Below are positions 23,246-25,870 of a stretch of DNA of 26,026 nucleotides, piece by piece (the stretch's first letter is position 1; each line of letters begins with the position of its first letter). Origin of the DNA: a virus. A program made the position numbers and the translations under genes. The notes beneath the pieces are model-generated. The model saw only the letters and a list, made by a program, of their open reading frames with translations. It had not been told where the DNA came from and made no database searches. Location of the stretch: positions 1 through 26,026 of the IMG/VR virus record IMGVR_UViG_3300035704_000156; one strand, 5' to 3'.

Positions 23246-24286
23246 CTAGCACTCGGCTAGGGCAACCATCCGGTGCATGAGGGCCGTGGCCACCGCCGGG
23301 CGACGGCCTAGACCGCACGGAGTGGAAACACCCAACTCGCGGCGAGCTGCACCCTCAGCCAGCTGGAGAGCTATTTTCTGCTGGCCGGAGCTGCCTAAGA
23401 CGTTGGCCAGCCCGGCGCTCACGTGAACCTCGCTGGGCAATTCTAGGCGGCCGAGTGGCTCGTAGAAACGTGCCTCACCCGGTGCCAGGTGCGCGCCGTC
23501 CCCTAGGGGTATATGCACAGCGTTGAGCCGGTATCCCGCGGGCCAGACTTTCCAGATCTCGTTGGCCAGCAAGACGCAGGCCTCCAGCGTCCGGGGGCTG
23601 GCCGGTTTGCGGCCCGCCGGATCGATCAGCGGCAGGCCGTTGGGGTCGCCTCCGCAGGTGTGCACGATGAACTCACAGCCCGGCGTCGTGCACCGGACGA
23701 ACTCCGCCAGCTGCCTAGCGAACCTCGCTGCGGCGCGAACTTTCATAGCCGCCGGTAGCACCGTTACTAGGTGAGTTTCTACCGGTATCGACAGCTGATA
23801 AACCGTGCTCGATAGCTGCTCTTCTATGGCGTTGACCTGCTGTGCAGCTGCTTCTACCTCGGTACCGTAGTACTTCCCCAGGAACGGGCCGTAGGCGAAT
23901 GCTGAGCGGTCAAACGGCCCCGGTACGTCGGCCTGCATACCCCAGGCCGTGAGGTGTGCCTTGACCAGATCAAGCAGCACCGGGTACGACTCGGCCGCCT
24001 GCTGTGCGTACGTCAGGCCGAGAGTCTCCGTCGTGATCTCCTGGCCGCGCCGCGCGACGTAGACCGCGCCATGCCAGGGCTTCATCGGATCTTTGTAGAA
24101 GCGGGGCTTGACCAAGGTACGAACTTCCGAACGCTGGCCCATGGCCTTGATGGGCTCGATTACCCAGTTTTCGGGCTCGTCAGTAGGCAATGTGGTGAGG
24201 TACTTGCCCATGGTTTTTGTAGCGTACTTCGCGGCTCTAGAGTAATCCGTGCTGCCCAGCGTGCCGACGAGATGAATGCGCCGCAT
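23246..24286 (-). CDS. MetE/UROD-superfamily-like zinc-barrel protein (346 aa)
   Basis: The start is ATG 24286, overlapping the previous stop as TAATG, with AAGGAAG 8 bases upstream. The 346-aa protein has LTTLPTDEPENWVI (about residues 30-43), PVETHLVTVLP (about 168-178), VHTCGGDPNG with an H-x-C pair (His209, Cys211) and STPCGLGRRP (Cys324). HxC followed by a late Cys in a CGL context is how cobalamin-independent methionine synthase (MetE) binds its zinc. Spacing is longer than in MetE, so it is a relative, not MetE itself. The reaction may transfer a methyl or thiol-linked group; substrate unknown. Confidence 0.62.
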   Translation of the reverse strand: MRRIHLVGTLGSTDYSRAAKYATKTMGKYLTTLPTDEPENWVIEPIKAMGQRSEVRTLVKPRFYKDPMKPWHGAVYVARRGQEITTETLGLTYAQQAAESYPVLLDLVKAHLTAWGMQADVPGPFDRSAFAYGPFLGKYYGTEVEAAAQQVNAIEEQLSSTVYQLSIPVETHLVTVLPAAMKVRAAARFARQLAEFVRCTTPGCEFIVHTCGGDPNGLPLIDPAGRKPASPRTLEACVLLANEIWKVWPAGYRLNAVHIPLGDGAHLAPGEARFYEPLGRLELPSEVHVSAGLANVLGSSGQQKIALQLAEGAARRELGVSTPCGLGRRPAVATALMHRMVALAEC

Positions 24287-25662
24287 TATCTCCACTTCCT
24301 TAGTCCGTCAAAAGGCATGGCGTAGAACTCGCGCAGATCTGGATCAGGTGAGCAGCCGGAAGTATCCGGGGTAAGTTGGTAGCTCCATCTCGGCCCGCTC
24401 TTCGCAATAATCCGTAGCGCATCGGCCAAGATCATGATTGATCCGTAGGTGGTATCGAGGCCGAGGGAGACTCGCACCGCTCCCAGGATGATGCCGCCGT
24501 GTCGACGGTTGTTGCCCATCGCGCGGGCCTGCTCTGGGGTAAGGCCGAGTAGATGGGCCATCAGCGGGTGTGCGCAGAAGCAGCCATCTCTGGTGCTGAT
24601 ACCGAACTCACAAGACAGCACAGCGCCCAGCAAAGCGTAGGGCATGCCAGAGAGATTAAACGTGATCGCACCAACTCTGGGGCCGGTCGGCCACATGCGG
24701 TACATCTGCAACCCAGGCACGCTAGCCAGTGCTTCGATAGCGAATTCTAGAAGGGTTTGATCTGAGGCCTCTACCTCGGACATCCCCACAGACATCAGCG
24801 TATCCATCGCTGTCGCTATACCGATCACACCTGCGATATTGGGGCTGCCCGGCTCATGCCGCGCCTGCGGGTCATCCAGCCAGCGCACGGATCCGTCAGT
24901 GTGTACGAAATCAACGATAGCGCCTCCCTTAATAAGCGGAGGTCGCTGTGTCAGTATATGCTCTGCGGAAGGTGCAACTGCCAAGACGCCTACATCCGAG
25001 GGTGCCCCCAATTTATGACCAGACAAGGCCAGCAGGTCTATACCCCAGGCGTGCATGTCTATCTTGCAGTGCGGCGCGAGTTGTGCCGCGTCCACCAAGA
25101 CCAACGCTCCGTGCGCGTGAGCCAGCTCAGCAATCGCAGCAATATCGGGACGCTCACCCGTGACATTAGATGCGCCGGTTACCGCGACTAGAGCGCCAGG
25201 CTGCCGGGCAAGCTCCGTATCTAAAACCCCCAGCAATTCAGCTGGGCTTGACGGCACAGGTAGAAGAGTTAGGTTCCTCCAGGGGAGGATATTGGCGTGA
25301 TGCTCGAAGGCGAAAGCAATCACCGGACCTTCAAAAGCATGCGCCACGATATTGATAGCGCCCGTGGTGTTTTGGGTCCACACTATTTTGGTGCCGCGCG
25401 ATGCTCCAAGAAACCAGCGAGCAATTCTCCGGGCGTTCTCGTACACACGAGTGCTCCACTCGGAAGCCCAACCCTTGCCGCGGTGGATAGCCGAGTAGTG
25501 GCCTCCGTGCAAGTAGGCGGCAACCGCTTCGACAGCTGACACAAGAGGGATCGCCGACGCCGCGTTATCAAAGCGGATGGCTGTAGTTGTGCCGCCGGTA
25601 ACTAGCGGAACCTGGGGGCTGGGAACCACCAAGGAAGGCAGGCCCACGGTTTGAAGGCCCAT
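24286..25662 (-). CDS. SufS/DndA-type cysteine desulfurase (aminotransferase class V)
   Basis: ATG 25662 (458 aa) is chosen, 8 bases after the upstream stop; a longer frame runs into that gene. Motifs: FDNAASA (about residues 31-37), EHHANILPW (about 120-128), DAAQ (191-194), LSGHKLG with PLP-binding Lys217, EPGSPN (270-275), and RDGCFCAHP (358-366), whose Cys363 matches the catalytic Cys of SufS. Such enzymes take sulfur from cysteine as a persulfide for Fe-S clusters, tRNA thiolation or DNA phosphorothioation. No dnd/ssp partner genes are present. Aminotransferase or selenocysteine lyase activity is possible. Confidence 0.87.
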   Translation of the reverse strand: MGLQTVGLPSLVVPSPQVPLVTGGTTTAIRFDNAASAIPLVSAVEAVAAYLHGGHYSAIHRGKGWASEWSTRVYENARRIARWFLGASRGTKIVWTQNTTGAINIVAHAFEGPVIAFAFEHHANILPWRNLTLLPVPSSPAELLGVLDTELARQPGALVAVTGASNVTGERPDIAAIAELAHAHGALVLVDAAQLAPHCKIDMHAWGIDLLALSGHKLGAPSDVGVLAVAPSAEHILTQRPPLIKGGAIVDFVHTDGSVRWLDDPQARHEPGSPNIAGVIGIATAMDTLMSVGMSEVEASDQTLLEFAIEALASVPGLQMYRMWPTGPRVGAITFNLSGMPYALLGAVLSCEFGISTRDGCFCAHPLMAHLLGLTPEQARAMGNNRRHGGIILGAVRVSLGLDTTYGSIMILADALRIIAKSGPRWSYQLTPDTSGCSPDPDLREFYAMPFDGLRKWR

Positions 25663-25669
25663 GGGCCAG

Positions 25670-25870
25670 CTAGCAAGCTTCGCTGATAGGTACGAAATGA
25701 TCGCGACGCCGTTTGAGGGCCTCAACTTGGCGCTCGCTGTATCGGACGCGATTAGACCCGTTGCTGTACTTGGTTAATAGGCCTTCGTCGCCATATCGGT
25801 CTAGTTGGCGAAGACTAATGCCAAGCATGCGCGATGCCGCATCCCTGGTTATGTATGTCTCAGTCGCCAT
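25670..25870 (-). CDS. MerR-like HTH regulator at operon head (66 aa)
   Basis: The 66-aa product is one winged HTH: TRDAASRMLGISLRQLDRYGDEGLL (about residues 8-32), then NRVRYSERQVEALKRRRDHF as the wing and a helix. Size fits small MerR/excisionase-like phage regulators. It is the first gene of the long leftward operon, and the 18-bp dyad at 25931 lies 61 bases upstream, suggesting it controls itself and its operon. The ribosome site is weak (TGGGG). Confidence 0.85.
   Translation of the reverse strand: MATETYITRDAASRMLGISLRQLDRYGDEGLLTKYSNGSNRVRYSERQVEALKRRRDHFVPISEAC

Follow-up and report, generated by a model that had tools for sequence, protein, structure and literature searches.

The analyzed window is the whole 26,026-base IMG/VR virus record IMGVR_UViG_3300035704_000156. 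Near one end of it, three genes on the minus strand encode an HTH protein, a putative cysteine desulfurase, and a zinc-barrel protein (Table 1). A sequence-only reading of this region had reported an HTH gene, a desulfurase with Lys217 and Cys363, and a 346-aa protein; all three lie where it placed them, and its residue numbering fits translation of the desulfurase from the ATG at 25662. A TTG further upstream, at 25725, provides an alternative start. The ATG is located 8 bases past the stop codon of the HTH gene, which is apparently the first gene of the operon. The reported coupling of the desulfurase and barrel genes by TAATG is also observed: the junction GGAGATAATGCGG contains this stop/start overlap, and the GGAG ahead of it is a plausible ribosome-binding site. 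The HTH protein additionally matches the mad1 model of the MADS system (E = 4e-8).

Table 1. Features of the window (positions in the 26,026-base record) and viral contigs compared with it.
Feature or contig	Position or length	Strand	Evidence or content
MerR/excisionase-like HTH protein, 66 aa	25670..25870	-	Pfam MerR_1, E=3e-7; weak PHROG excisionase matches
SufS-like class V PLP enzyme, putative cysteine desulfurase	24286..25662 (ATG start); ORF 24286..25725 (TTG start)	-	Class V aminotransferase domain Aminotran_5 (PF00266), E=2.2e-66 over residues 52-426; SufS/CsdB alignment
TAATG stop/start overlap, desulfurase/barrel	24284..24288	-	GGAG ahead; sequence GGAAGTGGAGATAATGCGG
346-aa single zinc-barrel protein, MetE/UROD superfamily, undescribed family	23246..24286	-	ATG 24286 to stop 23246; H209-x-C211 and C324-G-L; AlphaFold, Foldseek, conservation
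Cation diffusion facilitator	21241..22035	-	PF01545, E=5e-22
NADAR-domain protein	20789..21244	-	E=9e-22; adjoins transporter gene
Protein of PHROG 'DNA topoisomerase' family 6247	19757..20785	-	E=3e-101
Sortase-domain protein	14397..15023	-	N terminus signal-like
Epimerase, methyltransferase, and glycosyltransferase genes in a run	10150..13246	-
Overlap with G001, IMG/VR 3300036829_000176 (40,350 bp)	24385..26026	.	Start of G001 equals the window's final 1642 bases at 1639 positions
G603, IMGVR_UViG_3300041409_000508	71 kb		Desulfurase and barrel
G604, 3300049434_000014	153 kb		Desulfurase and barrel
G606, 3300036805_000110	49 kb		Desulfurase and barrel (barrel cut by contig end)
G610, 3300036805_000137	82 kb		Desulfurase and barrel
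G609, 3300049004_000016	115 kb		Barrel, without desulfurase
G611, 3300044835_000075	107 kb		Barrel, without desulfurase
Other contigs: G598, 3300049889_000047; G599, 3300036805_000138; G600, 3300049889_000004; G601, 3300049324_000016; G602, 3300035704_000397; G605, 3300036795_000118

In its large terminase, the window phage, a phage of soil, shows 63% identity to Streptomyces phage Samy and ~50% to Gordonia phages. Thus, it is an actinophage. Samy resembles it in the phage backbone, but no desulfurase or barrel gene is annotated in the part of the Samy record that was viewed, and the searches with the two proteins did not match this record. Given the nearly perfect overlap, G001 is the remaining half of this phage or of one almost identical to it. 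It is the replication half, on which polymerase, helicase, and primase-like genes were recognized by eye; the HTH-desulfurase-barrel module sits between it and the structural half. The joined contigs were counted as one phage of ~65 kb.

The best PDB matches of the desulfurase are structures of the SufS type (SufS/CsdB, E = 1.5e-52). The PLP lysine Lys217 (SGHK) and Cys363 (FCAHP) are in place; numbered from the TTG, they are Lys238 and Cys384. In the latter numbering, Lys238, Cys384, Arg379, and the histidines of EHH are invariant in the subfamily alignments and, with minor exceptions, in the phage copies, all of which keep the PLP lysine and the catalytic cysteine. The earlier assignment is thus supported by a conserved desulfurase-type active site. 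Enzymes of the desulfurase family release sulfur from cysteine, and, judged from these residues, the window enzyme probably does so too.

The likeness to the group II desulfurases SufS and CsdB (TIGR01979) includes the full-length class V PLP fold and the catalytic Lys, Cys, His, and Arg. However, the window enzyme scores 234.3 bits against the SufS model, whose cut-off is 475.1, and it belongs to a separate actinobacterial and phage subfamily with 40-47% identity. This subfamily was found in ~20 of 296 actinobacterial genomes and, by profile-guided scans, in 10 IMG/VR contigs besides the one overlapping the window. The phage copies form one clade with support of 76/98, which is weak on one measure. 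Another difference is a C-x-C motif in the active-site loop, present in all nine aligned phage copies (GCFCAHP, or GCLCAHP and DCFCAHP), whereas most bacterial copies have a single cysteine at this position; the extra cysteine of the window enzyme is Cys361 (GCFCAHP). Among bacterial genes, the one at L106 (4529-6052) comes closest to the desulfurase of the window (46-47% identity); it has the phage-type GCFCAHP and may mark a donor lineage. DndA and SspA of DNA phosphorothioation are also class V PLP enzymes, but the window desulfurase, with 49.8 bits against the DndA cut-off of 480, belongs to neither, and no dnd or ssp partner was present among the seven window proteins searched, in agreement with the sequence-only reading.

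The barrel protein has no match in Pfam, PHROG, or NCBIfam, and its 33 relatives have no consistent match; in particular, Meth_synt_2 was found in none of the 34 family members, which have a single rather than double barrel, and URO-D matched neither the window protein nor its relatives. Profile-profile comparison with MetE was too weak to establish homology by itself; the fold was settled by structure search. An AlphaFold prediction from 30 sequences reached pLDDT 89.3 and pTM 0.90. In a Foldseek comparison with the PDB, all 35 matches at E<0.001 were MetE, core methionine synthases (MesD-type), MtaA-type proteins, or UROD, with probability 1.00 and E down to 5.8e-6. The TM-scores of ~0.5 mark the barrel as a distant relative of MetE and UROD. 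Among the predicted viral structures of BFVD there was no match at E<0.001. Thus, the non-zinc, non-UROD fold that would have spoken against the sequence-only reading did not appear, and its term 'MetE-like' is justified by fold and zinc motif, though not by membership in any curated family.

The H-x-C pair and late CGL cysteine singled out in that reading are H209, C211, and C324. They are conserved in 42-43 of 43 relatives and likewise in each of the six phage barrels that were aligned, and the zinc motif as a whole, H-x-C with C-G-x-x-R, is kept in ~42 of 43. These residues align with the zinc ligands H641, C643, and C726 of E. coli MetE. The zinc of MetE is bound by a His and a Cys where strand 5 ends, by a Glu where strand 6 ends, and by a Cys that follows strand 8 (PMC539065). 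At the place of this fourth ligand (Glu/Asp, E665) the barrel family has no conserved acidic residue. In the predicted model, strand 253-260 (beta-6) ends near His258, which is conserved in 41 of 43 relatives; therefore, zinc is probably held by an H-C-H-C site instead of the H-C-E-C site of MetE, with H209, C211, and C324 as the predicted metal ligands and H258 as the probable fourth.

Homocysteine-binding residues have been described for MetE and the core enzymes (PMC539065, PMC7857596). For the triad S433, E484, and D599, counterparts of S433 and D599 are found in most relatives and that of E484 in approximately half; the motifs concerned are G-S/T-x-P and Q-x-E/D, present in nearly all members, and G-E, present in about half and in the G603 and G604 phages. 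At these positions the window barrel has T9, the E within DEPEN (D-E for G-E), and S166. Relatives have Glu/Asp at the position of Ser166, an acid that in MetE holds the amino group of homocysteine, and most have Glu at the position of Val296; thus, the substrate of the window barrel may differ from homocysteine. In summary of these comparisons, the window protein resembles MetE and the core methionine synthases MesA-D (PMC7857596, PMC7005905) in the UROD/MetE fold and the H-x-C and C-G zinc motif, and the core enzymes also in its single barrel; it differs in the missing family matches, in His258 at the end of beta-6 instead of Glu, and in the absence of the acidic homocysteine-binding residue. 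Uroporphyrinogen decarboxylase HemE belongs to the same barrel superfamily, but the zinc motif distinguishes the window barrel from it, and the identity is very low (~10%).

Used alone as a query, the window barrel retrieved nothing from viral contigs or from 50,697 phage records; its relatives surfaced only in tblastn searches of plasmids and in profile searches, the first alignment being too diverse for pattern scans. They are encoded on plasmids of Streptomyces, Nocardia, Amycolatopsis, and Spirosoma (E down to 1e-15) and in 9 of 396 sampled actinobacterial genomes. In the family of Kutzneria, 69 of 200 genomes gave matches. Slightly over half of these are strong; the weak matches may represent different members of the superfamily. 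The barrel proteins form an unnamed family found mostly in actinobacteria. No class V aminotransferase was found near 42 cellular barrel loci and no barrel near the 23 loci fetched for desulfurase relatives, and two of ten barrel-bearing genomes tested also had the near desulfurase subfamily. Therefore, the link between the families is seen in phages only. Cellular barrel genes have no constant neighborhood; some, in Pseudonocardiaceae and on plasmids, adjoin genes for alpha/beta hydrolases, class I/II aminotransferases, and P450, which hints at specialized metabolism. In several genomes, probably of Streptomyces, the chromosomal desulfurase copy adjoins trpD and cytochrome bc1/aa3 genes, as in the locus L117 (8118-13175), where it lies beside trpD and a cytochrome bc1 cluster.

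Both genes are present in the window phage and in four more uncultured IMG/VR phage contigs of 49-153 kb (G603, G604, G606, and G610). In these four, the barrel came to light when phage contigs with the desulfurase were searched with the barrel profile. Further scans, which covered 2.9 million viral contigs but were pattern-limited and hence of reduced sensitivity, added only G609 and G611 as barrel carriers, so that five of the seven barrel phages also have the desulfurase. Conversely, the barrel occurs in 5/5 desulfurase phages of at least 49 kb and in 0/6 contigs below 45 kb (Fisher p = 0.002), and its absence from the latter may reflect their incompleteness. The chance of at least four contigs in common between 6 barrel and 12 desulfurase contigs is 2.5e-21 in a universe of 2.9 million and 1e-4 in one of 200; counted by lineage, the chance of overlap is ~0.005 to 1e-8 for 20 to 500 lineages. 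The universe sizes are assumptions, and 12 desulfurase contigs were used against 11 listed, which does not affect the conclusion.

The carriers of the pair are for the most part little related. By blastp, the window phage shares 1 to 9 genes with each of the other four, at median identities of 30-41%, and in an all-against-all comparison the desulfurase and the barrel are the only two families common to the window phage, G603, G604, and G610; no constant third partner was found. G603 and G610 are related (27 genes in common at ~54%), as are G606 and G609, which leaves four independent lineages that carry both genes. On the barrel tree, the phage label must have been gained or lost at least twice. 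Because the pair co-occurs in other phage genomes, the pairing is non-random, contrary to the outcome that the sequence-only reading had named as fatal to it. The operon arrangement is peculiar to the window phage: in none of the other genomes examined are the two genes adjacent, those of the other phages with the pair being ~18 to 50 kb apart, and the bacterial families are not neighbors. Adjacency across the ends of G606 was considered and rejected, as near-identical relatives have head genes after the desulfurase, not the barrel. The 153-kb phage G604 contains about ten tRNA genes, including tRNA-Cys (L172, L174). A link to tRNA thiolation was rejected, since tRNA genes are absent from the window and from most carriers.

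Barrel enzymes of this fold that keep the zinc motif activate and alkylate a thiol. Our main, tentative interpretation, with a probability of about 0.4, is that the pair is a cargo module of actinophages whose two enzymes act on small host sulfur compounds. In the first step, as suggested by family and active site, the desulfurase would use PLP-Lys217 to take the sulfur of cysteine onto Cys363, yielding a persulfide or sulfide, plus alanine. In the second, modeled on MetE and the single-barrel core methionine synthases, the barrel would bind zinc through H209, C211, C324, and probably H258, activate a thiol substrate as a zinc thiolate, and alkylate it, most likely with a methyl group. The genomic co-occurrence suggests that the cysteine-derived sulfur might end in a thioether or thiol that the barrel makes or uses, for example if homocysteine is converted to methionine and enzymes of the host supply the steps in between. 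A more specific scenario, which seems doubtful to us, is a mobile two-gene pathway repeatedly gained by unrelated actinophages, in which the phage-specific CxC desulfurase and the new family of zinc-barrel transferases jointly make an undescribed sulfur metabolite required for infection or lysogeny.

Coupling of the two enzymes is opposed by the adjacency of the genes in the window only, by the barrel-only phages G609 and G611, and by the six short contigs with the desulfurase alone. The same observations, apart from the short contigs, favor two separate auxiliary genes that co-occur only via cargo exchange among the same soil actinophages and hosts, the desulfurase supplying sulfur for Fe-S clusters or tRNA and the barrel being a methyltransferase of host metabolism. 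An additional argument is provided by G609, where a 1386-bp segment of its relative G601, spanning the desulfurase gene almost exactly, is cleanly absent (L187 14101-14102, at ~74101 of G609, versus L195 13844-15229 of G601; flanks ~96% identical); thus, the desulfurase behaves as a single-gene insert. Passages in several virome papers on viral auxiliary genes also mention cysteine desulfurases. However, the rarity of both genes in phages (0/50,697 phage records for the barrel), their coincidence in five of the seven barrel phages and in all five desulfurase phages of at least 49 kb, and the lack of any other family common to the window phage, G603, G604, and G610 speak against mere exchange. 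We consider separate genes quite possible, although we lean away from this explanation.

The sequence-only reading had proposed that the product is a modified nucleoside or another compound protecting phage DNA. Desulfurases do feed sulfur to DNA in the Dnd and Ssp systems, and the window enzyme distantly matches the SspA and DndA models, but SufS-type models score far higher (234 bits versus 50 for DndA), the pair-bearing phages have no third family in common able to act on nucleotides or DNA, and we know of no DNA substrate in the MetE/UROD superfamily. With nothing specific pointing to it, this product is very unlikely. A defense system was likewise rejected, its basis being these distant matches and the weak MADS-type match of the HTH protein. 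The pair could instead alter a protective thiol or toxic small molecule of the host, such as mycothiol or antibiotic chemistry, and so favor infection or lysogeny. The apparent specialized-metabolism neighbors of some cellular barrels agree with this, but these neighborhoods are not constant and no direct link to mycothiol genes was seen, and we regard it as unlikely.

Single viral desulfurase genes are already known, and auxiliary metabolism that draws on known folds is likewise familiar in phages. What appears to be new is the barrel family, the CxC clade of phage desulfurases, and their co-occurrence: in the open literature, incompletely covered, we found no paper on the pair or on the barrel family in phages, which is in line with the earlier suggestion of an undescribed pairing. 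Recurrence of the pair in mostly little-related phages suggests an undescribed way of handling host sulfur. The co-occurrence connects a rare clade of desulfurases with an enzyme family for which none of the curated libraries searched has a name, and that family, or a weak relative of it, is present in up to about a third of the sampled genomes of one actinobacterial family. If the pair acts together, phages would divert the sulfur of cysteine through a zinc-thiolate transferase, and the pair would help to work out what a family present in antibiotic-producing bacteria does. Both proteins are of moderate size, which makes the pair directly testable.

Several other genes of the window are also of interest. 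The cation diffusion facilitator, a metal transporter encoded ~1.2 kb downstream of the zinc-barrel gene, has no match among the 50,697 phage records. The NADAR fold of the protein encoded next to it is tied to ADP-ribose/NAD chemistry. The match to the 'DNA topoisomerase' family of PHROG is strong and has no Pfam counterpart. Finally, the consecutive genes for an epimerase, methyltransferase, and glycosyltransferase functions may serve to decorate the virion or DNA with sugar.
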